The notes under the pieces are model-generated. The model saw only the letters and a program-made list of their open reading frames with translations. It made no database searches and was not told the origin of the DNA. From assembly GCF_006738645.1 (NCBI RefSeq), contig NZ_AP019700.1, forward strand, positions 4,818,001 through 4,882,000: a DNA stretch of 64,000 nucleotides. Reading direction: 5' to 3'. Of this stretch, positions 1 through 12,017 are shown piece after piece. Source of the stretch: Stella humosa. Lineage in GTDB: Bacteria > Pseudomonadota > Alphaproteobacteria > ATCC43930 > Allostellaceae. Position numbers and translations under genes: made by a program. Positions within the stretch are counted from its first letter, which is position 1; each line of letters starts with the position of its first letter.

Positions 1-350
1 GCCCAGCCATAGGAGCCGGCATAGATCGCGCGGCTGCCGAACGTCTCGCGCACGCGGGCCAACTCGCCCGCCACGAGGTCCAGCGCCGTATCCCAGCCGA
101 CCTCGACGAACGGCTCCCCGCCGCGGCCCTCGCCGCCCGCGCGCTCCCGCCTTGCCAGCCACGAGCGGCGGACCATCGGCCCGCGGATGCGCAAGGGGCC
201 GTCCAGCGTCGGCGGGACGGAGCGGGCGATGGGCGACGGGTCGCCATCCAGCTCGAACGGGTGCAGGCCGACCAGCCGGCCGTCCCGCACCTCCGACCGG
301 TAGGTGCCCCAATGGGTGGCGGTGGTGGCGAAAGCCGCGTCCTGGGGCAT
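1..350 (-). CDS. Molybdopterin-dependent oxidoreductase, BisC/TorA type (N-terminal fragment)
   Basis: Only the first 116 residues lie in the window; the gene runs off the left edge. The translation from ATG at 350 carries the start seen in biotin sulfoxide/TMAO/DMSO reductase-like enzymes: a THWGTYR segment near residue 12, a DGDPSPIARSV segment near 34, a VRRSWL segment near 60 and EVGWDTALDLVAGEL near 80, ending in YAGSYGWA. Family members bind bis-MGD molybdenum cofactor and reduce S- or N-oxides; the exact substrate cannot be told from this part. No Tat signal is visible, so a cytoplasmic BisC-like enzyme is more likely than TorA. It starts 26 bases after hyuB and is probably cotranscribed with it. 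Confidence 0.8.
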   Translation of the reverse strand, partial: MPQDAAFATTATHWGTYRSEVRDGRLVGLHPFELDGDPSPIARSVPPTLDGPLRIRGPMVRRSWLARRERAGGEGRGGEPFVEVGWDTALDLVAGELARVRETFGSRAIYAGSYGW

Positions 351-376
351 CGTCCGGTCCTTTCCCTGCTGGGCCG

Positions 377-2047
377 TTACTCGGCTGCGGCGGCCGTGGC
401 GCCGTAGAGGCGGGCGGCGGCCTCGGCCGAGACCAGCCCGTCGCGCAGGTCGGCCGCCACCTGGTCGCGCGGCCGGGTGTTGGGGTCGCCGATGCCGGCA
501 CCGCCGGGGGTCTGGATGATGAGGCGTTCGCCGGGCGGCACCATCTGCGAGCCCTTGCCCTTCATCACCAGCCCGGAGGCCAGGCCGACCGTGCCCGACG
601 CCCCGTCGCCGCCGCCCTCGCGCCCGCGCGGCGGATGGTCGATGCGGTCGAAGGCGGCCAGCAGCTCGACCGGCAGGCCGTCCGCGCTCTCGATCTCGAT
701 GATCTGGCCGAGCCCGCCGCGGGTGTGGCCGGCGCCGGCCGAATCCGCCCGCAGCTCCTTGCGCCAGAACAGCAGCGGCGTGACCGATTCGGCGATCTCG
801 ACCGGGGTGCCGCGCACGCCGCTGGGATAGGCGGTGGCCGACAGCCCGTCCTTGGCCGGCCGGGCGCCGGTGCCGCCGTTGGAAGTGATGGTGACGGCGA
901 AGCCGTACTTGCTGTCGGGCTTGTCGGCGCTGGGGCCGCGGAAGGTCATGTTGTAGAGGCAGGACGTGCCCTCGGCCGGCACGCGCTCGGGCACCACCTG
1001 GCGCAGGCAGCCGAACACCATGTCGGGCAGCATCTGGCCGGTGATGTGGCGGGACGAGACCGGCAGCGGATAGGGCGCGTTCAGGATGGTGCCGGGGGGT
1101 GCGGACACCGTCAGCGGCTCCAGCGAGCCGGCATTGTTGGGGATTTGCGCTGCCACGACGCAGCCCAGCCCGAAGCAGGTATAGGCGGTCGTATAGGCGA
1201 TCGGCACGTTGATGCCCTTCGACGACGCAGGCGAGGTGCCGTCATAGGCGACGTGGATCGACTTTTCCGACACGGTCACCGTCGCGTGCAGGTCGATCGG
1301 CTGGTCGAAGCCGTCGATGCGCATGCGGTGCGTCCAGCTACCCTTGGGCAGGCGCGCGATCTCCGCCAGGACGGCCTCGCGCGAGTGGTGGATGATGTGC
1401 TCTGCCAGGTCGTCGAGGCTGTCGAGGCGGAACTCGTCCATCATCTCCGACAGGCGCTTGCAGCCGACATCGTTGCAGGCGGCCAGCGAATAGACGTCGC
1501 CCTCGGTGTCGACGGGCAGGCGCGTGTTGGCGCGGATCATCGCCAGCAGCGTCTGGTTCATCTGGCCGCGCTCGGCCAGTTTCAGCATGGGGATGTAGAG
1601 CCCCTCCATGAAGACGTCGGTGCCGTCCGGCCCGAAGCCGATGCCGCCAATGTCCATGAGGTGGCTGGTGCAGGACAGCAACGCCACCAGCTTGCCATGG
1701 TGGAAGCAGGGCGTCGTCAGGACGAAATCATTGAGGTGGCCCGTGCCCATCCACGGGTCGTTGGTGATGTAGATGTCGCCCTCCTCCATCGTCTCGACGG
1801 GGAAGTGCCGCAGGAAGTGCCTCACCGATTCGGCCATGGAGTTCACATGGCCGGGCGTGCCCGTCACCGCCTGCGCCAGCATCCGCCCGCGCAGGTCGAA
1901 GACGCCCGCCGACAGATCGCCGCATTCCCGCACGATCGGGCTGAAGGCGGTGCGGATCAGGGTCTGCGCCTGCTCCTCGACGACCGCGATCAGGCGGTTC
2001 CACATGATCTGGGTGTGGATCTGGGAGAGCGTGTTGGAACGGGCCAT
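377..2047 (-). CDS. hyuB: Hydantoinase B / oxoprolinase family protein (HyuB)
   Basis: Beta-type subunit of the ATP-dependent N-methylhydantoinase/acetophenone carboxylase/5-oxoprolinase family, which opens cyclic amides or carboxylates ketones together with HyuA. The 556 residues match the usual length (about 510-580) and include family blocks such as QTLIRTAFSPIVRECGDLSA (residues about 28-47), DIYITNDPWMGTGHLNDF (about 92-109) and near the end GGAGIGDP. An AGGAA site lies 9 bases before the ATG. HyuA, normally the adjacent upstream gene, is present but 2.1 kb away with foreign-looking genes in between. The substrate is not predictable from sequence alone. Confidence 0.88.
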   Translation of the reverse strand: MARSNTLSQIHTQIMWNRLIAVVEEQAQTLIRTAFSPIVRECGDLSAGVFDLRGRMLAQAVTGTPGHVNSMAESVRHFLRHFPVETMEEGDIYITNDPWMGTGHLNDFVLTTPCFHHGKLVALLSCTSHLMDIGGIGFGPDGTDVFMEGLYIPMLKLAERGQMNQTLLAMIRANTRLPVDTEGDVYSLAACNDVGCKRLSEMMDEFRLDSLDDLAEHIIHHSREAVLAEIARLPKGSWTHRMRIDGFDQPIDLHATVTVSEKSIHVAYDGTSPASSKGINVPIAYTTAYTCFGLGCVVAAQIPNNAGSLEPLTVSAPPGTILNAPYPLPVSSRHITGQMLPDMVFGCLRQVVPERVPAEGTSCLYNMTFRGPSADKPDSKYGFAVTITSNGGTGARPAKDGLSATAYPSGVRGTPVEIAESVTPLLFWRKELRADSAGAGHTRGGLGQIIEIESADGLPVELLAAFDRIDHPPRGREGGGDGASGTVGLASGLVMKGKGSQMVPPGERLIIQTPGGAGIGDPNTRPRDQVAADLRDGLVSAEAAARLYGATAAAAE

Positions 2048-2427
2048 GGGCGGGGGTTCCTGCGGGTTGGAGAGAGAGCGCTTTGAGGCGAGTATAGCGG
2101 TTCGATGTCGAATGGGGGGCGCAATAGCGTCGTGGGCCGCCAGCTTACACTTGAGCCGCCCACCTACTTTCAGTCAGCATGTGCGGCGACCGCGGCTTGC
2201 GAGCAAGCGTCAACTGCTTCCGGCTTGAAACTGCTTCGCAGTCAATATAATCTTTACCGGACCCTCGCCTTCATCGAAAAATACACTCAGCCAAACTCTC
2301 CAAATAACTAGAGTTTCTCGTATTAATTGCGTATTCATGCACGTTAAGTGAATATATTTGCGCAATAGCCTAATTTTTTCGACGGACAATTCTACAGCAT
2401 TTTTTGATAACTTATATCATCAACACA
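2048..2427. other. AT-rich intergenic stretch, left part of the islet
   Basis: No gene is supported here. After about 100 bases of ordinary GC-rich hyuB leader the composition turns clearly AT-rich (2240-2427 contains many A/T runs). Two short perfect hairpins sit at the change: GCTTGC-GA-GCAAGC at 2195-2208 and ACTGC-TTC-GCAGT at 2230-2242. They could mark an insertion edge, but no integrase or flanking duplication was found. Confidence 0.5.
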
Positions 2428-2946
2428 TCAATCCACTTCATCCAACGTCCGCACAAGCTGCCCAATTCTTTGGGTTAGCGCCGTTTGTGTACTAACAGTA
2501 TTTATCATCCGGCCTTTCGCTTCAACCTCATCACTCGATAGACCAATTTCGGCCACTTGGCTGCGCAGTCGATCAGCCAATACCCGTACCTCATCGTCAC
2601 GCACTCGGCTCGCGAGCAACATCGTTTCGGTAGTCAGGCGGAGAAGATCGTCTGACAGACCTGGCGGAAGTTGCTGGCGTTGCCAGATGCTGGTCGCACG
2701 ATGTGCCAAAATATCTTGGTGGAGTGACGCACCGGCGTTGCGCACCAGATTCTGGGAAGCGATCTGCAGGGCGAGTAGCGTCTCTCGTTGGAATTCATTG
2801 CGCCGCATCACCTGCCGTTCGTTGCGTTCTTCGCGACGGCGCTCACGGTCACGTTCAGAAATTCGCCGATCGGCTAGCCAAGCGGCCAGCATCGTTAGCA
2901 CCCCTCCCGCTATTACGCTGACCGTTGCAGCAAGCCAATTCGGCAT
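2428..2946 (-). CDS. Membrane-anchored coiled-coil protein of unknown function
   Basis: I do not recognise the family. From ATG at 2946 (GGAGG 5 bases upstream) the 172-residue product begins MPNWLAATVSVIAGG with one hydrophobic segment (about residues 3-19), then a very charged ADRRISERDRERRREERNER stretch (about 20-40) that predicts a coiled coil, then an amphipathic helical body to the C-terminus. The topology suggests a single-pass inner-membrane protein with a helical cytosolic domain. A longer ORF starting at 3099 exists, but its first 51 residues look non-coding and lack a good ribosome site. Base composition is well below the neighbours, and it is divergent from the HEPN gene at 3146, 199 bases away. 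It may form a two-gene cassette with it. Confidence 0.6.
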   Translation of the reverse strand: MPNWLAATVSVIAGGVLTMLAAWLADRRISERDRERRREERNERQVMRRNEFQRETLLALQIASQNLVRNAGASLHQDILAHRATSIWQRQQLPPGLSDDLLRLTTETMLLASRVRDDEVRVLADRLRSQVAEIGLSSDEVEAKGRMINTVSTQTALTQRIGQLVRTLDEVD

Positions 2947-3145
2947 CCATTCCTCCACTTGTGAATCTCTGACTTTCACTGGCAGACTGCACAAAGTTGC
3001 TCGATTGCCGTGCGCCCTGGCAAACTTTCGACAAGCCCAATCAACTTGGCAGCCGCAGGCTGTTGACTGGAATCCAGGATGACCACAGCATCGTGGCACG
3101 GATACGCATTCATCGTGGTATTTTTATTCGCACAAAGGAATAACC

Positions 3146-3814
3146 ATGGCCGACTCAGAACACTTGCGTGATCTAAAGGTGGCGTGGGGCGACTCCTGTC
3201 ATTCAATGTGGGCGGAGTTACTTTCAATCTCCATCGCCGAGAACGCAATTCGAAGCCGTTATGCCGAAATCAAAAGCGATACTGTTCTCCACGACATCGC
3301 CTATGCGCCCGACGTAAAGGGGCGACTAGGCATGCTAACCAAAGACCGATTTCTTGAACGTGTTCCAAAATACAAAGATGCAGTCATTACCAATCGTTTA
3401 ATTATTCTTTCAGCATCATTCGAATTATACTTAAATAACTTCATTGAGAGTTACCTTGCTAAGCGGCCCAAATTTTACGACAACGCGCTAAAGAAACGGA
3501 CGCCCGCAGGAGATAAGATATATGGAGAGGCCATAAAGACTCGCGGCCTGAGTGCCAGAGTCCGAAAGATGGCAGAAGAAGTTCCCTTTAAGATCAAGTC
3601 GCTGGACAACGGTCTCGAATTCCTTGATGATGTATATACATTGCGCAATGTGCTCGCGCATCGCGCTGGACGCGTCGACGATCATGCCTCCCACTCGCTC
3701 AGGCACATCTTATTCAGATCAGGCGATCGCGTTACAATGTCTGCTCAGCAGATGATGGACTTAGCCGCTCCGGTCATCAAGATAGCCGAAACTCTTGACC
3801 GCAAACTTAACTAA
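3146..3814 (+). CDS. HEPN-domain protein (RiboL-PSP-HEPN / MAE_28990-like)
   Basis: The 222-residue all-helical protein has the conserved HEPN core: NRLIILSASFELYLNNFIES (about residues 83-102) and, at the end of the last helix, LRNVLAHRAG with R167-N-x3-H172, the R-x4-H motif that forms the RNase site of many HEPN toxins and defence effectors. Proteins of this kind are known in toxin-antitoxin and abortive-infection settings; that it acts as an RNase here is inference. AAGGA lies 7 bases before the ATG. Codons and base composition are AT-richer than the host average, a sign of transfer. No nucleotidyltransferase (MNT) antitoxin is next to it; the only partner is the divergent coiled-coil gene. 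Confidence 0.7.
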   Translation: MADSEHLRDLKVAWGDSCHSMWAELLSISIAENAIRSRYAEIKSDTVLHDIAYAPDVKGRLGMLTKDRFLERVPKYKDAVITNRLIILSASFELYLNNFIESYLAKRPKFYDNALKKRTPAGDKIYGEAIKTRGLSARVRKMAEEVPFKIKSLDNGLEFLDDVYTLRNVLAHRAGRVDDHASHSLRHILFRSGDRVTMSAQQMMDLAAPVIKIAETLDRKLN

Positions 3815-4169
3815 ACGACGACACTATCGATGTTTGGGAGTGGTGTTCTTGATCCCATATAGGTAGTGCTGCGCCAGGAGACTGTAAACGCGCACTTCGA
3901 TTGTACAGATCAGCGGTGGCGTCCTCCACATTAGCGTAGCCACCAAGACTCAAAGTACTTCGACCGCTTTAAAGCATTATAATCTATCGTTATTTTACCA
4001 AAAATGTCGATGAAAGCCGTTATCTTGCCCGCGACGGCCGATAGGTGCTCGTCGGCAATCGGCCAATTGCGCTATAAGCAGTGCACTGAGACGGCGGCCA
4101 CAGCACAAAGGCGCCTGATAGGCACCTTCTAGCAGCGCAAATGCGCCCACCACGATTTTTCGAGTTCGC
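3815..4169. other. Intergenic, right part of the islet
   Basis: No supported gene in 355 bases. AT-rich up to about 4020, then reverting to host composition. It holds imperfect and perfect inverted repeats: AAGGCGCCT/AGGCACCTT at 4108-4128 and GCGCA-AA-TGCGC at 4135-4146, neither followed by a T-run on either strand, so they are not convincing terminators. Confidence 0.5.
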
Positions 4170-6260
4170 CTACCCCGCCCTTCTCTCCAGCACGATGCTC
4201 CCCGTAGCCGCGATCCGCGCCCCGAACCGTGCCGGCACATAGGTCGACGTCTCGTCCTCCGCGATCACCGCCGGGCCGGACAGCGCCGCGCCCACGGCCA
4301 GGTCCGCGCGCCAGTAGAGCGGGATCTGCGCGCGTTCCCCCGTTTCCGCGTCGAACACGTCGATGCGGGCGGCCTCGACGGCGACGGAGCGCTCCGCCGG
4401 GTCGGGCACGGCGGCCGGCAGCGGGGCCTCGGTCGAGACGACGACGCCCCAGCTCAGTACCTCGACGGCGGCCGTCGGCACGACGCGGGCGAACAGGGTG
4501 CGGTATTCGGCGTCGTAGGCGGCCTGGAGGGCGGTGCGGTCGGCCTCCACCAGCGGGCGGTCGGGCAGCGGCACCACGATCTCGTGCCCCTGGCCGACAT
4601 AGCGCATGAAGGCGTAGCGGGTGCGCGTCAGCGGGCGGCCGCGGGCGCCGGCCGCGACCACCTCGTCGGCCTCGGCCGTCATCGCGGCCAGGAGCTGGTT
4701 GGCGAGGCCGGCGTCAAAGGCGTCGAGGCGCATGTAGCGGCTGCGCACCACCTCGTAGGCGATGGGGGCGAGCAGGAACCCGACGGCGGAGCCGACGCCG
4801 GCATTCACCGGCACGATCACCCGGTCGATGCCCAGCTTCTCGGCCAGGCGGGCGGCGTGGAGGGGGGCGGCACCGCCGAAGGCGACGATGGTGTGGCCGT
4901 CGGCGGCCTGGCCGCGCTCGACCGCGTGGACGCGGGCGGCGTTGGCCATGTTCTCGTCGACGATCTCGGCCACGCCCAAGGCTGCCATCTCGGGCCCGAG
5001 GCCCAGGGGCTCGCCCACCTCGCGCTCCAGCACGGCGGCCGAGCGGTCGGGGTAGAGGGGGATCTTGCCGCCGGCAAAGCGGGCCGGGTCGATCTTGCCC
5101 AGCACCACGTCGGCGTCGGTCACGGTCGGCATGGCGCCGCCGCGGCCGTAGCAGGCGGGGCCGGGCTCCGAGCCTGCGCTGTCCGGGCCGACGGTGATAC
5201 GCTTCAGCACGTCGACGCGGGCGATCGAGCCGCCGCCGGCGCCGATCTCGACCATCTCGATCACCGGGATGCGCAAGGGCAGGCCGCTGCCCTTGAGGAA
5301 GCGGGCGGCGCGGTCGACCTCGAAGGCGCGCGCGCTGGCGGGCCGGAACTTCTCGATCAGGCAGATCTTGGCCGTGGTGCCGCCCATGTCATAGGACAGC
5401 ACCTTCTCCTCCCCCGCCGCGGCCGCGATGTGGGAGGCCAGGATGGCGCCGCCGGCCGGGCCGGATTCGACCAGCCGTATGGGGAAGCGGCGGGCGGTCG
5501 CGATGGTGGTGAGGCCACCGCCCGACGTCATCAGGTAGACGGCGCCAGCGAAGCCGCCCTGGCGCAAGGCTGCCTCCAGCCGGGCGAGGTACCCCGCCAT
5601 CAGCGGCTGGACATAGGCGTTGGCGATCGCGGTCGAGGTGCGCTCGTACTCGCGGATCTCGGGGCAGACCTCGGACGACAGGGTCACCCACAGGTCGGGC
5701 AGGTGCCGGTTCAGCACCTGGCGGATCTGCTCCTCATGGGTGGGGTCGGCGTAGCTGTGCATGAGGGCGACGGCGACGCTCTCGATCTTGTGCTCGGCGA
5801 GCGGGCCGGTCAGCGCCTCGACGGCGGCGAGATCGAGGGGCAGGCGCACCTGGCCCTTCACGTCGACCCGCTCGGGCACGGTGAAGCGGCGCCAGCGCGG
5901 GACCAGGGCCGGCGGCTTGTCGATGAAGACGTCGTACTGGTCGTAGCGGCTCTCGTAGGCGATATCGATGGTGTCGCGGAAGCCCTCGGTGGCGATGAGG
6001 GCCGTCAGCGCCCCCTTGCGCTCGATGATGGCGTTGGTCGCCAGCGTCGTGCCGTGCACCAGGATGTCGATTTCCGCCAGCATCAGCCCGGCATCGGCGA
6101 TGGTGACGGCCACGCCCTCCATCACGCCCAGCTCGGGGGCCTGGGGCGTCGTCAGCACCTTGCGCGTCCAGCGCCGGCCGGCCGCCTCGAGCACGATGTC
6201 GGTGAAGGTGCCGCCGATGTCGACCGCCAGCCGCGGCCCGTTCGCTTGCGTCTCAGCCAT
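4170..6260 (-). CDS. hyuA: Hydantoinase A / oxoprolinase family protein (HyuA)
   Basis: ATP-binding subunit of the N-methylhydantoinase/acetophenone carboxylase/5-oxoprolinase family, acting with HyuB. It begins with the ASKHA-type phosphate-binding block AVDIGGTFTDIVLE (about residues 12-25), and contains VHGTTLATNAIIERKGA (about 70-86), LSYDMGGTTAKICLIE and AFGGAAPLHAARLAE. The 696 residues fit the usual 650-710. ATG at 6260 was chosen because the DIGGTFTD block should be near the N-terminus; the upstream extension to 6353 has no support. Its natural partner hyuB lies downstream beyond the HEPN islet. It is divergent from the tctC operon. Confidence 0.9.
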   Translation of the reverse strand: MAETQANGPRLAVDIGGTFTDIVLEAAGRRWTRKVLTTPQAPELGVMEGVAVTIADAGLMLAEIDILVHGTTLATNAIIERKGALTALIATEGFRDTIDIAYESRYDQYDVFIDKPPALVPRWRRFTVPERVDVKGQVRLPLDLAAVEALTGPLAEHKIESVAVALMHSYADPTHEEQIRQVLNRHLPDLWVTLSSEVCPEIREYERTSTAIANAYVQPLMAGYLARLEAALRQGGFAGAVYLMTSGGGLTTIATARRFPIRLVESGPAGGAILASHIAAAAGEEKVLSYDMGGTTAKICLIEKFRPASARAFEVDRAARFLKGSGLPLRIPVIEMVEIGAGGGSIARVDVLKRITVGPDSAGSEPGPACYGRGGAMPTVTDADVVLGKIDPARFAGGKIPLYPDRSAAVLEREVGEPLGLGPEMAALGVAEIVDENMANAARVHAVERGQAADGHTIVAFGGAAPLHAARLAEKLGIDRVIVPVNAGVGSAVGFLLAPIAYEVVRSRYMRLDAFDAGLANQLLAAMTAEADEVVAAGARGRPLTRTRYAFMRYVGQGHEIVVPLPDRPLVEADRTALQAAYDAEYRTLFARVVPTAAVEVLSWGVVVSTEAPLPAAVPDPAERSVAVEAARIDVFDAETGERAQIPLYWRADLAVGAALSGPAVIAEDETSTYVPARFGARIAATGSIVLERRAG

Positions 6261-6512
6261 GATCCCTTCGCCCGTATCCTGCTCGCCCGTCACTCGCCGG
6301 TCCGGCCAGCCTGGCCGGGCCGCGCACTCTAGCGGCGTCGGGGGCGGCTGCAAACCGCGTGCGATGGGCGGTTGGCAGGACCGCCGGTCCAGGGTTAGGC
6401 TGATCCATCGCTAAGCCGCGCCGGACCATCGGTGCGGCCCCCGACCATCCGCGCCGCCCGACGGCCAGCCCCAGCGAGGACCATCGCCGACCGATACCGG
6501 GCGGACTTTTCT

Positions 6513-6526
6513 GCAAGCGCTTTCAG
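6513..6526. promoter_or_regulatory. LacI-family operator-like palindrome
   Basis: TGCAAGCGCTTTCA fits the TGNAANCGNTTNCA consensus of LacI/GalR-family operators at every fixed position, with one imperfect pair. It sits in the 300-base divergent region between hyuA and tctC, 34 bases before the TTG start of tctC, a typical place for repression of an uptake operon. No LacI-type regulator gene is in the window, so the regulator would act in trans. The rest of 6261-6560 holds no recognisable gene. Confidence 0.5.
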
Positions 6527-6560
6527 CGTCGCCAAGAACGTGAAAGACGGAGGAAACGAA

Positions 6561-7523
6561 TTGAAGATGCCGCATATCCGCGTGCTGGCGCTGGCCCTGC
6601 TGGCGATGGCCGGCACGGCCACGGCGCAGGACTTTCCCGCGCGCGACCTCACCTTCATCGTGCCATATGGCCCGGGCGGCTCGACCGACCCCATCTCGCG
6701 GCAGTTCGCCACGCAGATGGAAAAGGAGCTGGGCCGCAGCATCACCATCCAGAACAAGCCGGGTGCGGCGGGCGCGCTCGGCGTCAGCCAGATCGTGGCG
6801 GCCAAGCCCGACGGCTACACCATCGGGCTGGCGCCGAACACGACGCTGATCTTCGCGCCGATGACCAACAAGGACCTCACCTTCCAGTCGCCTTCCGACT
6901 ATGAGCCGATCGCCAAGCTGGTCAGCCTGCCCTACGTGCTGGTGGTGAAGGCCGACGCGCCGTGGAAGACGCTGCAGGAATTCATCGACGACGCGAAGAA
7001 GCAGCCGGGCAAGCTGCGCGCGTCCGTATCCGGCATCCGCGCCACCAACGACCTGACGATGCAGCAGTTGAACAAGGCGGCCGGCATCCGCGTGCGCACC
7101 GTGCCCTTCACGGGCGGTGGCGGCGAGGCGATGGTGGCCCTGCTGGGCGGCCGGGTGGAAGCCTATGTCGGCACCGGCGCCAGCACGGTGGGCCATGCCC
7201 AGGCGGGCTCGGTCAGGGTGCTGGCCGTGTTCCAGAAGGGGCGCTACGACCTGTTCCCGGACGCCACGCCCACGGCCGACGCCGGCTATGACGCGACGCT
7301 GGGGCCGGGATACTACGCGATCGCGCCCAAGGGCGTGCCGCAGGCGGCGCTCGACCGCCTGACGGCCGCCGCGAAGAAGGTCATCGCCAGCCCGGAATAC
7401 CTGAAGTTCGCCGCCGACAACGGCTATTCGGTCGAGAACCTGGAGCCCAAGGAGATCCGCGCGGAGTTCGAGCGCGACCACGCGATGTTCACCGAGCTGC
7501 TGAAGTTCCTGGAACAGAAGTGA
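6561..7523 (+). CDS. tctC: Tripartite tricarboxylate transporter substrate-binding protein (TctC/Bug)
   Basis: Periplasmic receptor for the TctABC importer encoded downstream. It has a Sec signal peptide (hydrophobic segment LALALLAMAGTATAQ, cleavage after ATA-Q), then the family hallmark FIVPYGPGGSTDPISR at the start of the mature protein and the DGYTIGLAP segment. The 320 residues are standard. GGAGG at 6549-6553 is 7 bases from TTG 6561 and 13 from ATG 6567, so I favour the TTG start (adds Met-Lys). Bug proteins bind carboxylates, amino acids or aromatic acids; here the divergent hydantoinase genes hint at a related ligand. Confidence 0.9.
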   Translation: MKMPHIRVLALALLAMAGTATAQDFPARDLTFIVPYGPGGSTDPISRQFATQMEKELGRSITIQNKPGAAGALGVSQIVAAKPDGYTIGLAPNTTLIFAPMTNKDLTFQSPSDYEPIAKLVSLPYVLVVKADAPWKTLQEFIDDAKKQPGKLRASVSGIRATNDLTMQQLNKAAGIRVRTVPFTGGGGEAMVALLGGRVEAYVGTGASTVGHAQAGSVRVLAVFQKGRYDLFPDATPTADAGYDATLGPGYYAIAPKGVPQAALDRLTAAAKKVIASPEYLKFAADNGYSVENLEPKEIRAEFERDHAMFTELLKFLEQK

Positions 7524-8326
7524 CGATGGAAGCGCAGATGACCACCGATCCGATGAAGCCGATCGATCCATTGAAGCCATTGGCCGGCCGCACCGCCATC
7601 GTCACCGGCTCCGGCCGCAACCTGGGCCGGGGCATGATCCTGGCCTTTGCCAAGGCCGGCGCCAACGTGGTGGTGAACGGCCACCGCGACCAGGCCGCCA
7701 TCGAGGCCGTGGCCGACGAGGCGCGCGCGCTGGGGGCAGAGGCGCTGACCATCCTGGCCGACGTGTCGCAGCCGGACGAGGTGGTGCGCATGGTGGCCGA
7801 GACGGTCGACCGCTTCGGGTCGGCCGACATCGCCGTCGCCAATGTCGGCCTGCGCCCGCGCCAGGCCTTCCTCGACATCTCGGTCGAGGACTGGCGCCGG
7901 GTGATCGAGACCAACCTCAGCTCGGCCTTCTACCTGGCCCGCGCCGTCCTGCCGGAGATGAAGAAGCGCAACTGGGGGCGAATCATCCACATCTCGGGCC
8001 GGGACGGGTTCTTCACCATCTCGCACCGGGCGCACAACGTCACCTGCAAGGCGGGGCTGCATTCGCTGGCGAAGGCGATCGCGGTGGAGTTCGGGGAGTT
8101 CAACATCACCGCCAACACCATCGCGCCCGGCAAGATGGATACGGTGCGGGACGAAAAGCACTATCCCGGCTACCAGGCGGCCTGGGCCGAGGCGGTGAAG
8201 GTGATGCCGCTGCGCCGGCTCGGCACGGCCGAGGATGTGGGCGAGGCCTGCGTCTACCTCGCCTGCGGCGGGGAGTACGTCACGGGCCAGCTCCTGCACC
8301 TGAATGGCGGGGAGTTCGTGTTCTGA
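7520..8326 (+). CDS. SDR-family protein with Asn in place of catalytic Tyr
   Basis: Short-chain dehydrogenase/reductase fold: TGSGRNLGRG nucleotide-binding loop (residues 29-38), GRIIHISG with Ser159, and Lys177. The position four before the Lys is Asn173 (NVTCK) where nearly all SDRs have Tyr (YxxxK). The usual NNAG is replaced by VANVG. This points to an atypical or non-redox role, or use of another acid such as a nearby His. GTG at 7520 overlaps the tctC stop (GTGA); ATG at 7526 or 7538 are alternatives. Sandwiched between tctC and tctB, it probably acts on the imported substrate. Confidence 0.82.
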   Translation: MTMEAQMTTDPMKPIDPLKPLAGRTAIVTGSGRNLGRGMILAFAKAGANVVVNGHRDQAAIEAVADEARALGAEALTILADVSQPDEVVRMVAETVDRFGSADIAVANVGLRPRQAFLDISVEDWRRVIETNLSSAFYLARAVLPEMKKRNWGRIIHISGRDGFFTISHRAHNVTCKAGLHSLAKAIAVEFGEFNITANTIAPGKMDTVRDEKHYPGYQAAWAEAVKVMPLRRLGTAEDVGEACVYLACGGEYVTGQLLHLNGGEFVF

Positions 8327-8352
8327 AGCCGGGGCGCGGCACGACGCCCGTT

Positions 8353-8464
8353 GCGTCCCTCGACAAGAGGCTCGGGATGAGGAACAGCGGGTTTGGCATG
8401 ACTGCCGGTACCGAAAGGCTGTCCTCATCCCGAGCGCGGAGCGCAGCGAGCAGTCGAGGGACGC
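8353..8464. repeat. Long interrupted palindrome (REP/BIME-like element)
   Basis: GCGTCCCTCGAC at 8353-8364 is mirrored by GTCGAGGGACGC at 8453-8464, and CTCGGGATGAGGA at 8371-8383 by TCCTCATCCCGAG at 8422-8434, giving a stem of about 25 bp with unpaired internal segments. An extra perfect hairpin GCGGGC-A-GCCCGC follows at 8463-8475. It lies just after the SDR stop and before tctB, so transcripts could form a strong secondary structure there. It resembles dispersed intergenic palindromes of high-GC proteobacteria; no second copy was seen in this window. Confidence 0.7.
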
Positions 8465-8501
8465 GGGCAGCCCGCGTGCGCGCCTGTCCGCCGGCCGTCG
8501 C

Positions 8502-8981
8502 ATGACCAGCGCTGCGCGCTCCATCGGCAAGCGCGGCGCCTACCTGGCGACGGGGGCGATCGGGGTGGCGCTCAGTGCCGGGTACCTGGCCCTGGCCCGG
8601 CGGCTGCCGCTGGGCGAGCTGGACCAGCCGGGCGCCGGGGTCTTTCCCGTCATCGTCGGGACCCTGGTGCTGCTCGCCAGCCTGGCGGTGCTGTGGGAAG
8701 GCTGGCGGATGCCGGCCGCGGCCAGCGTCGACCTGCCGGCTGGCGCCGATGCCGGGCGGGTGCTGAGCCTGCTGGGGCTGATCGTCGCCTATGTCGTGCT
8801 GCTGCCGTGGGCGGGCCAGCTCGTCGGCGGCTTCGTCTTCTGCCTGCTGCTGATCCGCCTGCTCTCGGGCAATGGCTGGGTGCGGGCGGCCATCCAGGCG
8901 GCCGTGATCTCGGCCGTCGCCTATCTCGTCTTCGTCCGCCTCCTCCAGGTCCAGATGCCGCGCGGCATCCTGGGCCTGTAG
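8502..8981 (+). CDS. tctB: Tripartite tricarboxylate transporter small permease TctB
   Basis: Small membrane subunit of the TctABC importer. The 159 residues show four hydrophobic segments, among them AYLATGAIGVALSAGYLALA, VFPVIVGTLVLLASLAVLW and LSLLGLIVAYVVLLPWAG, and end in the family-typical LLQVQMPRGILGL. The first Met with this topology is at 8502, though no clear ribosome site precedes it, perhaps because of the upstream palindrome. TctA follows 30 bases later. Confidence 0.85.
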   Translation: MTSAARSIGKRGAYLATGAIGVALSAGYLALARRLPLGELDQPGAGVFPVIVGTLVLLASLAVLWEGWRMPAAASVDLPAGADAGRVLSLLGLIVAYVVLLPWAGQLVGGFVFCLLLIRLLSGNGWVRAAIQAAVISAVAYLVFVRLLQVQMPRGILGL

Positions 8982-9011
8982 GACCGGTCGGCAACCAGCA
9001 CCGGAGAAGCG

Positions 9012-10502
9012 ATGGGTCCGATCGAGGGGCTGCTCTACGGCTTCGGCGTGGCGCTGGGCTTCCAGAACCTGGCCGCGGCCCTGCTGGGGGCGCTGGTCGG
9101 CACGATGATCGGCGTGCTGCCGGGCCTGGGCCCGGTGGCGGGCGTGGCGATGATCCTGCCGCTGTCCTATGCGTTCGAGCCGGTGACCGGCCTCATCATG
9201 ATGGCCGGCATCTATTACGGCGCCATGTATGGCGGCTCGACGACCGCCATCCTCCTCAACATGCCGGGCGAGTCCGCCTCGGTCATGACCTGCATCGACG
9301 GCTACAAGCTGACGCAGAAGGGCCGGGCCGGCGCCGTCCTGGCCCTGGTCGCGGTCGGCTCCTTCGTCGGCGGCACGGTGTCGGTCATCGGCGTGATGCT
9401 GTTCGCGCCGTGGCTGGCGCAGTTCGGCATCCTGTTCGGCCCGGCGGAGTTCCTGGCGGTGTCGGCGGGCGGCCTGCTGGTGCTGTCGCGCATATCGGGC
9501 GGCAGCTTCGCCGCCGGCATCTTCCCGATGACGCTGGGCCTGATGCTCAGCACCATCGGGCAGGAGGCGATCACGGCGCAGAACCGCTTCACCTTCGGCG
9601 TCCTCGACCTGGCCCAGGGGGTGGAGCTGGTGGCGGCCGTCGTCGGGCTCTACGGCATCGCGGAGATCCTGGCGCTCGTCGAATCGCGCATCGCCTCGCG
9701 CCCGCCGGTGCCGGTGCGGCTGCGCGAAATGATGCCGACGGCGACGGAATGGCGCCGGTCGGTGCCGCCGTTTGGCCGCGGCACGCTGGTGGGCTTCGTC
9801 TTCGGGCTGCTGCCCGGCCCGTCGGCCGCCATGTCGAGCTTCGCCTCCTACCGGCTGGAGAAGGCGGTCTCCAAATACCGCGACGAGATCGGCCAGGGTG
9901 CCGTCGAGGGCGTGACCGGGCCGGAGACGGCCAACAACGCGGCCGCCACCTCGTCGATGGTGCCCCTCCTGGCGCTGGGCATCCCCTTCGGGTCGGTCAC
10001 CGCGCTCATGCTGGCGGCGATGATGGTGCACGGCATCCAGCCGGGGCCGCTGCTGATGGTCAGCAACGCCGACGTCTTCTGGGGCGTGATCGCCTCGCTC
10101 TACATCGGCAACGTGGCGCTGCTGGTCCTGAACATCCCGATGATCGGGCTGTGGGTCAGCATGCTGCGGGTGCCGCGCCACATCTTCCTGCCGATCATCG
10201 TGGTGATCGCCGTCATCGGCTCCTATGGCGTCGGCAACAGCATGGTCGACGTCTACGTGCTGGTGCTGCTGGGGGTGGTCGGCTACCTGCTGCGCAAGCT
10301 CGACTTCCAGCTAGCCCCCATGGTGATCGGGCTGGTGCTGGGGCCGCTGATCGAGAAGCACCTGCGCGAGGGCCTGTTCATGAGCGACGGCGACCTGATG
10401 GTCTTCGTCGAATCGCCGATCGCGCTCTCAATCTGGGCCATGGTGGCGCTCGTCATGGTCGGCGGTACGCTGGTGCCGATCCTGCGCCGACGCCGGGGAT
10501 AG
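9012..10502 (+). CDS. tctA: Tripartite tricarboxylate transporter large permease TctA
   Basis: Large channel-forming subunit (496 residues, normal length) with about 10-12 membrane segments. It shows the TctA signature GTMIGVLPGLGPVAGVA (about residues 31-47), GGSTTAILLNMPGE (about 76-89) and a second inverted-repeat half with GLLPGPSAAMSSFASY and EGVTGPETANNAAATSS. GGAG lies 5 bases upstream of the ATG. It completes the operon tctC-SDR-tctB-tctA, and converges with the racemase gene 4 bases after its stop. Confidence 0.93.
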   Translation: MGPIEGLLYGFGVALGFQNLAAALLGALVGTMIGVLPGLGPVAGVAMILPLSYAFEPVTGLIMMAGIYYGAMYGGSTTAILLNMPGESASVMTCIDGYKLTQKGRAGAVLALVAVGSFVGGTVSVIGVMLFAPWLAQFGILFGPAEFLAVSAGGLLVLSRISGGSFAAGIFPMTLGLMLSTIGQEAITAQNRFTFGVLDLAQGVELVAAVVGLYGIAEILALVESRIASRPPVPVRLREMMPTATEWRRSVPPFGRGTLVGFVFGLLPGPSAAMSSFASYRLEKAVSKYRDEIGQGAVEGVTGPETANNAAATSSMVPLLALGIPFGSVTALMLAAMMVHGIQPGPLLMVSNADVFWGVIASLYIGNVALLVLNIPMIGLWVSMLRVPRHIFLPIIVVIAVIGSYGVGNSMVDVYVLVLLGVVGYLLRKLDFQLAPMVIGLVLGPLIEKHLREGLFMSDGDLMVFVESPIALSIWAMVALVMVGGTLVPILRRRRG

Positions 10503-10506
10503 GCGC

Positions 10507-11259
10507 TCAGGAGGGGCCGGCCAATCCGCCCGCCAGCATCCGCGCCAGGCCGTCCGGCAGTCCGGGATAGGGCTTGGCCGGGTCGCGCGGCGGCGGTCGC
10601 ACCGGTCGCGCGGCCACGGCGGCCAGCGCCGCCTCCACCGCCGCGCCGACACCGTCGTAGAGCGGCACGCCCGCCCGGTCGCCCAGTTCCCGCCCGATGC
10701 CGGCGAAGACGGCACCGCCGAAGAGGATCGCCTCGGCCCCGTCCTCGGCCACGACGCGGGCCGCGAGTGCCATGATCTCGTCGAGGAAGGCCGCGCGGTC
10801 GCGCGCCAGGTCCAGCACCCCGCCCGAGACGTAGCGCAAGGCCACCAGCCGGTCGGCCACGCCGCAATCGGCGATCACCCGGTCGACCCCGACGCGAAGT
10901 CGCGGCGCCAGGCTGACGATGGCAAAGCGCCGGCCGCCGGCCGCGGCCGCCCGCACGCCGGATTCGGCGATGCCGACCGCCGGCACGAGCGCCGATTCGC
11001 GCAACGCCTCCAGGCCCGGGTCCATGAAGGCGGCGACGATGACGGCGTCCATGTCCGACCGCGCGGCGACCGCATCCAGCACCGCGTGCGCGGCCACCGT
11101 CGCCTCGGCCAGGGTCTCGATGCCGGCCGCGCCGAAGCGGGCGGTGGCGGCCGGGATCTCCGCCCGGTCGCCGGCGACCAGGCGCGCCTCGGTCGCCAGC
11201 CGGTCGGTGACCGACTGGCTGGTGTTGGGGTTGACCAGCAGGATGCGAGGGACCGCCAT
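10507..11259 (-). CDS. Asp/Glu/hydantoin racemase-family protein lacking both catalytic Cys
   Basis: A 250-residue paralogue of the neighbouring hydantoin racemase. The family fold is clear (RILLVNPNTS start, DPGLEALRE, PLYDGVGAAVE), but both cysteines used as acid/base are gone: Ala77 stands where Cys76 should be (VAAFMDPG) and Gly182 where Cys181 should be (FGGAVF). Classical racemisation is therefore unlikely; decarboxylation, isomerisation or a binding role is possible. Its start overlaps the upstream racemase stop by one base (TGATG), so the two are translationally coupled. Confidence 0.8.
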   Translation of the reverse strand: MAVPRILLVNPNTSQSVTDRLATEARLVAGDRAEIPAATARFGAAGIETLAEATVAAHAVLDAVAARSDMDAVIVAAFMDPGLEALRESALVPAVGIAESGVRAAAAGGRRFAIVSLAPRLRVGVDRVIADCGVADRLVALRYVSGGVLDLARDRAAFLDEIMALAARVVAEDGAEAILFGGAVFAGIGRELGDRAGVPLYDGVGAAVEAALAAVAARPVRPPPRDPAKPYPGLPDGLARMLAGGLAGPS

Positions 11260-11999
11260 CAGCCGGCCCTGGGAGCGAAGGGGGCGAACATCCCCGCATA
11301 GGCCTTGGGCAGCGGCGGGGCGTAGGGGCCGGACTTGGCCGTGCGCAGGCCGAGCCGCGCCAGCCCCTCCACCAGCACGACCGCCGCGGCCACGCCGTCG
11401 ATCACCGGCAGGCCGTGGGCGGCCGACAACTCGCCCGCCAGGTCGGCCATGCCGGCACAGCCGAGCACGATGGCGTCGGCCCGGTCCTCGGCCCGGGCCC
11501 GCTCGATCTCGGTCGCGATGCGGCCGATGGCGTCGCCGTCACGGTCCTCCAGCGCCAGCACCGGCACCTCGGCCGCGCGCACCCGCGCGCAGCGGGTGGC
11601 CAGGCCATAGCGCACGAGGTTGCCCTCGATCGCCGCGATCGAGCGCGACAGGGTGGTGACGACCGTGAAGCGATGGGCCAGCAGGGCCGCGACGTGGAAG
11701 GCCGCCTCGCCGATGCCGACGACGGGCGCGGCAGCCAGGCAGCGGGCGGCATCCAGCCCGGTATCGTCGAAGCAGGCGATGACGTGGCCCGCCACGCCGG
11801 CCGCCTCGCCCGCCGCGATCTCGGCCAGCAGGCCCGGCACCGAGAAGGCCTCGTCGTAGAAGCCCTCGATCGAGGCCGGCCCCATCGCCGGCTGGGTGGC
11901 GCGAACCCGCGTGCCGGGGGCGGCGGCCGCCTGGGCCGCGCGGCCGATCTTGTCGGTCATGGCGCGGGTGGTATTGGGGTTGACGACCAGGATCTCCAT
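11259..11999 (-). CDS. Hydantoin racemase / Asp-Glu racemase family protein
   Basis: The 246-residue protein begins MEILVVNPNTT and has Cys76 in VIACFDDTGLDAAR and Cys181 in VLGCAGMADL, the two-cysteine pair that interconverts D- and L-5-substituted hydantoins in known enzymes. Allantoin racemase is a close alternative in the same family. It is the fifth gene of a minus-strand operon after an ABC importer, 18 bases after the second permease, which suggests that the imported compound is the substrate. Confidence 0.85.
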   Translation of the reverse strand: MEILVVNPNTTRAMTDKIGRAAQAAAAPGTRVRATQPAMGPASIEGFYDEAFSVPGLLAEIAAGEAAGVAGHVIACFDDTGLDAARCLAAAPVVGIGEAAFHVAALLAHRFTVVTTLSRSIAAIEGNLVRYGLATRCARVRAAEVPVLALEDRDGDAIGRIATEIERARAEDRADAIVLGCAGMADLAGELSAAHGLPVIDGVAAAVVLVEGLARLGLRTAKSGPYAPPLPKAYAGMFAPFAPRAG

Positions 12000-12017
12000 G
12001 CCGGCAGTCTCGACCCC

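Follow-up and report, generated by a model that had tools for sequence, protein, structure and literature searches.

A probable landing site for small defence cassettes between hyuA and hyuB in the genus of Stella humosa, occupied in this species by a HEPN-like gene and a membrane protein gene

The hyuA and hyuB genes of Stella humosa, which the first-pass annotation expected to be adjacent, are separated by AT-rich DNA, and the locus raises the question of where this DNA came from and what it may do for its host. The window analysed here, a stretch of 64,000 nucleotides, carries both genes on the reverse strand, with hyuB (hydantoinase B/oxoprolinase, 377–2047; Pfam PF02538 Hydantoinase_B, E 6.2e-151) on one flank and hyuA (hydantoinase A/oxoprolinase, 4170–6353; Pfam PF01968 Hydantoinase_A, E 1.6e-82) on the other. 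The 3' end of hyuA was placed at 4170, and its 5' end was uncertain, at about 6290 or 6353. The islet between them (2048–4169) consisted of 2,122 bp with 51.0% GC compared to 69.7% for the 64-kb window, which bore out the earlier description of about 2.1 kb of AT-richer DNA at this place. When segments of 2,122 bp were compared in 100-bp steps, the 12 with the lowest GC content all overlapped the hyuA-hyuB gap.

Two long ORFs could be recognized in the islet, a 222-amino-acid HEPN-like protein on the forward strand (3146–3814), predicted to be a ribonuclease effector, and a 172-amino-acid, membrane-anchored, coiled-coil-like protein with one hydrophobic N-terminal segment on the reverse strand (2428–2946). 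Both had been described in the first-pass annotation, and their divergent start codons were separated by a 199-bp stretch (2947–3145) that presumably holds the promoters. Third-codon-position GC was 0.52 for the HEPN-like gene and 0.54 for the membrane protein gene, against 0.95 for hyuA and 0.94 for hyuB. Both ORFs look like real genes, because differences from their relatives fell mostly at third codon positions (36/22/98 at positions 1/2/3 over 172 codons for the membrane ORF and 93/71/162 over 222 codons for the HEPN-like ORF). The membrane ORF most likely starts at ATG 2946 rather than at GTG 3099, since in the sister-genome copy, 74% identical, the reading frame stays open for just one further codon upstream of the corresponding methionine. 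Long non-coding stretches lay at either end of the islet. Pfam revealed no integrase, transposase or MNT domain in the two long ORFs (E ≤ 1), a scan for promoters and terminators gave nothing above shuffled sequence, the islet DNA had no match in plasmids, and a PDB search by sequence returned nothing credible.

The interval was then compared across the genus, for which four genomes were available, one per species: the S. humosa genome itself (G000) and the sisters G001, G002 and G003. In G002 the hyuA stop and the hyuB start were 71 bp apart with no insert. The gap of G003 measured 4,312 bp and contained an ATPase matching LmuB (E 3.3e-37), the ABC-3C middle component MC5 (E 4.4e-31) and a hydrolase with the ABC-3C domain CTD9 (E 2.9e-28); matches to LmuA and LmuC were weak (E 0.006 and 0.0046), and the predicted ABC-3C system is therefore termed Lamassu-like. 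The gap of G001 measured 3,857 bp and contained PDC-M65A (E 2.7e-37) and PDC-M65B (E 7.7e-89), which would make its cargo the system PDC-M65AB, of candidate status in PADLOC; PDC is taken here to mean PADLOC candidate. The conserved flanks thus enclose four different contents in the four genus members, namely nothing, a Lamassu-like system, PDC-M65 and the window islet, and PADLOC recognized two of the three cargoes. The Lamassu-like system fills the same gap as the window islet and shares no gene with it. With the islet absent from one sister and replaced by unrelated cargo in two others, the earlier proposal of a foreign insertion is supported.

Similarity to the sisters stopped within the last hyuA codons and restarted 14–18 bp before hyuB, and 13 more bases with a TATA-like stretch were common to G000 and G003 only. 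The sole DNA shared among the three inserts was one 25-bp match (E 0.027; three pairs, E 0.1). AT-rich islets, defined as DNA with less than 58% GC per 1 kb, were scanned in regions chosen around the hyuA-hyuB site. One was found in 114 kb of G003 and one in 114 kb of G001, both being the hyuA-hyuB gap, and two in 134 kb of G000, being the same gap and an islet that coincides in part with the specificity end of a type I restriction-modification (R-M) operon. Given four islets over 362 kb, chance would be unlikely to place three of them independently at the same junction, a rough estimate as the regions were picked around the site. Of the results of this analysis, the landing site between the two hyu genes is the firmest, and it matters more than the pairing of the HEPN-like and membrane proteins. 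The type I R-M genes of G000 extend from L099:19401 to L100:5006 (contig C1, about 25–31 kb before the window start), where a single protein carries methylase as well as specificity domains and the specificity end is AT-rich.

Signatures of an insertion mechanism were looked for at the site, and none was found. The longest flank-to-flank repeats that might represent a target-site duplication were 5, 6 and 6 bp. No tRNA or tmRNA was found in window positions 1–12000 or in the six loci scanned, no Rfam match was obtained up to E 0.5 in window positions 1500–5000, and no att site in the form of a tRNA or Rfam RNA was found. An exact 12-bp inverted repeat links the hyuA end and the hyuB start in G003 (L032:7018–7029 and 11359–11370), with a weaker one in G002. 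Its score was equalled by 33 of 200 shuffles in G000, 0 of 200 in G003, 105 of 200 in G001 and 2 of 200 in G002, and the empty site of G002 folded no better than shuffles (z 0.75). Insertion at this inverted repeat was dropped, as G000 and G001 did not exceed shuffles and the fold of the empty site was null. That cassettes are exchanged by recombination between the conserved flanks is a guess.

Outside the genus, 19 further hyuA loci (L008 and L039–L056) were inspected. A hyuB match was present in the stretch for 7 of them and absent in 12, several of the stretches stopping at contig ends. Five of the seven had hyuB within 40 bp, and the other two had gaps of 1.8 and 2.7 kb that held, as judged by eye, a mannose-1-phosphate guanylyltransferase and a chemotaxis receptor; the one insert of the two that was profiled had the composition of its host. 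Since these gaps hold metabolic-type or chemotaxis-type genes, an immune content of the gap is demonstrated for the genus only. As a separate observation, at least 16–18 hyuA-like genes per genome were present in G000–G003, with scoring up to 18 candidates, and among 57 other genomes only G053 had as many among the candidates listed.

The arrangement resembles the core defence hotspots cDHS1 and cDHS2 of Pseudomonas aeruginosa, a class of sites carried by most isolates of one species, where conserved flanking genes enclose varying immune systems or none, part of the sites (29% and 47%) lack a detectable mobile gene, and a tRNA or tmRNA lies at the flank (PMC10250203). The flanks are likewise conserved at hyuA-hyuB and the immune content differs or is absent. 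Unlike the sites so described, the cargo here is a single small system of 2–4 kb, it varies across species rather than strains, and the scans of the window positions and six loci given above turned up neither a tRNA nor a tmRNA in its vicinity. A literature search on the hyuA-hyuB site or on the proteins of the islet, judged by titles and abstract openings, found none, and no paper was found on PDC-M34, PDC-M65 or DUF6602 by name.

The assignment of the first islet protein to the HEPN superfamily was assessed by motif, relatives and profiles. The superfamily motif is given as R-x4-6-H with a polar residue after the arginine in PMC3710099, and the window protein carries R167-N-V-L-A-H172 (codons at 3644–3661, forward strand), the proposed catalytic motif, which conforms to it. 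With R-x4-H and asparagine after the arginine, a predicted all-helical build and an immune-type neighbourhood, the protein resembles the HEPN effectors described there; in contrast to them, it matched no curated family at E ≤ 1, including any HEPN family in Pfam, NCBIfam, PADLOC and PHROGs, and no MNT partner was seen. Its sole close relative came from scanning genome contigs with a pattern, a search limited to near relatives; it is a protein of Hansschlegelia quercus (L001:10001–10759), 48% identical, with the motif arginine and histidine invariant between the two. This relative matched HEPN_RiboL-PSP of Pfam at E 0.031 and 14.6 bits, below the cut-off of 28.4. Profile-profile comparison gave a HEPN match with the motif aligned at E 0.0028 and 11% probability (control 0.48); adding a protein found by the same profile gave E 5.4e-5 and 66.5%, a circular result. 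The structure model was mostly helical with a pLDDT of 37, too poor for a fold search or for recognition of the four-helix HEPN fold. HEPN membership of the window protein is therefore likely, short of proof: of the earlier HEPN assignment, the motif stood, and the profile matches were weak.

Searches of 290 relatives and of 385 genomes of the class, two overlapping sets, returned matches to the HEPN-like protein in its own genome and nowhere else, and no relatives were found in plasmids, phages or viral contigs. A two-sequence profile gave weak matches in three genomes among 398 of the phylum and in two among 150 of the Hansschlegelia order; the first count includes the own genome and the second that of Hansschlegelia. 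Two weak candidates were set aside. In G481 (E 6.9e-5; G918 has the same coordinates) the R-N-x3-H motif lies within a longer frame, and the protein is a distant relative at most; the match of G711 (E 4.3e-4) is short, lies in a frame of 791 residues and was dropped as chance. In Hansschlegelia the relative starts 22 bp behind PDC-M34B (Swt1-HEPN, E 1.8e-37), which is preceded by PDC-M34A (DUF5343, E 3.1e-37), inside an islet of 42–51% GC in a locus of 66% GC. Neither M34 gene is present in the window, and neither window protein had a PADLOC match at E ≤ 1. M34B matches were found four times in 249 genomes, three being clear M34AB pairs (L057–L059) and one, L060, a longer protein that matches in part; none of the three clear pairs had the HEPN-like gene within about 1.5 kb, and the idea that it regularly forms the third gene of PDC-M34 was rejected. 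Of the defence link suggested earlier, the neighbourhood stood, through PDC-M34 beside the HEPN relative and the immune-type cargo of the sisters; a defence role of the protein itself may be suggested from this context only.

Alignments place the second islet protein in an undescribed mobile family that is distributed over chromosomal islets, plasmids and phages. Its gene was the only islet-DNA match in G001–G003 and the Hansschlegelia genome, and this closest copy, 74% identical, lies at another place in G003, in a separate AT-rich islet where it is convergent with a DUF6602 protein (E 5.5e-23) that also matches NucC (E 1.1e-17); no such NucC-like nuclease is present in the window islet. The G003 islet occupies about 6650–8450 of L065 (G003:C1:3246500–3262500) and is flanked by 2-hydroxyacid dehydrogenase-like genes. 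Among 72,556 plasmid records, two gave weak tblastn matches at 38–40% identity over half the protein (E 7e-4 and 2e-3); when the G003 copy served as query, the E values improved to 7e-5 and 2e-4. These plasmid members, from Kocuria rosea and Arthrobacter sulfonylureivorans, each adjoin a type I R-M operon, represented by genes for a methylase, a helicase and a small HTH protein. A four-row profile further revealed members in three viral contigs, L104, where the protein is 30% identical over 159 residues, and the related contigs L105 and L106, the L105 copy being 33% identical to that of L104.

On L104 (IMGVR_UViG_3300047160_010714) the family gene (1864–2361) stands behind a gene for a 238-amino-acid protein without a Pfam match (858–1574); a caspase-like or protease-like reading of this neighbour was made by eye only and was set aside, as Pfam finds nothing. 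On L105 the family gene (5977–6501), as judged by eye, is placed between early-type and lysis-type genes, where accessory genes are typically found, and it has the same place in L106. The N-terminal hydrophobic segment and a QRETLLA core were conserved in all six aligned members. None of the six members scanned reached a Pfam cut-off, no PHROG match below E 0.01 was obtained for the family, and PADLOC, with which the window and G003 members were scanned, gave no match for the window member at E ≤ 1. A further weak candidate, G309 (E 1.4e-4), and a second place in G003 were dropped as weak matches in a charged helix. The structure model of the membrane protein was too poor for a fold search.

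The first-pass annotation had suggested that the two genes could form an undescribed toxin-antitoxin or abortive-infection module. Such a dedicated module, in which the membrane protein would be the antitoxin, sensor or tether of a HEPN toxin and the two would work only as a pair, draws on the adjacency of the genes in a two-gene islet, their divergence from the shared 199-bp region, and the lack of any other antitoxin candidate seen in the islet. It is disfavoured because each gene occurs without the other outside the window: the membrane protein was not found in the Hansschlegelia genome (E ≤ 0.1), which has the HEPN relative, and the HEPN relative was not found in G003, which has the membrane protein. 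The HEPN profile also gave nothing at E ≤ 10 around the membrane-family genes in G003, the two plasmids and the three phage contigs. Antitoxins are usually co-transcribed with their toxin, unlike the divergent genes seen here, and the other long ORF of the islet, the membrane protein, has no MNT match, which sets the islet apart from HEPN-MNT pairs. No co-occurrence of the two proteins outside the window, the outcome that the first-pass annotation had named as refuting the module, has been found so far in the genomes searched, and this agrees with that outcome; the numbers are small. An obligate HEPN-membrane pair was rejected on this ground as the best reading, and a dedicated module is considered distinctly improbable. 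Alternatively, the membrane protein may serve as a shared anchor or sensor for whichever nuclease adjoins it, in keeping with a nuclease or R-M operon at four of the six places read (the predicted one of the window included) and with the conserved membrane segment and core. Against this, gene order and orientation vary every time, the phage members on L104 and L105 have no recognized nuclease beside them, and the neighbours may be a matter of chance as defence genes cluster anyway, so that this reading is judged unlikely. Its broader form, in which the family would arm a HEPN RNase here, a NucC-like DUF6602 protein in the sister and type I restriction on actinobacterial plasmids, with the hyuA-hyuB gap as one landing site of such cassettes, is a speculative proposal of similarly low probability.

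Two further readings were weighed. The islet may hold two unrelated mobile pieces with no role in defence, or a decaying remnant, the HEPN-like protein being no ribonuclease; the weak HEPN evidence and the long non-coding ends agree with this, and the coding constraint in both genes, the motif residues kept in a 48% identical relative and the immune-type neighbours, at the site in the sisters and around the HEPN relative, argue against it and leave it doubtful. That both are native genes of the locus lost in other species found no support and is already contradicted by the foreign composition, by the only islet-DNA match lying elsewhere in G003, and by the restriction of the HEPN-like gene to its own genome among the 290 relatives; this reading is considered extremely improbable. 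On balance, and on a small sample of four genus members, it is rather probable that the hyuA-hyuB gap serves the genus as a recurrent landing site for small, integrase-less defence cassettes, and that the islet is the cassette of this species, with a predicted HEPN ribonuclease effector and a separate membrane family. From its context, the islet would be defence cargo that combines the effector with a loosely associated membrane protein. Most likely, the HEPN-like protein acts as a ribonuclease effector: it would remain silent until infection, the presumed trigger, and then cut RNA via R167 and H172, whereupon growth would stop. The membrane protein is probably an inner-membrane anchor whose helical part faces the cytoplasm, and it may exclude or sense the invader alone or assist the adjoining nuclease. 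A contact between the two islet proteins is putative.

For a small hotspot without a tRNA or an integrase, the route of cassette exchange becomes a question in itself, and the membrane family recurs beside nucleases and on phages. For this genus the comparison provides a usable rule, that the content of the hyuA-hyuB gap is likely an immune cassette, and the unlabelled cargo of S. humosa is therefore a good candidate for a new system.
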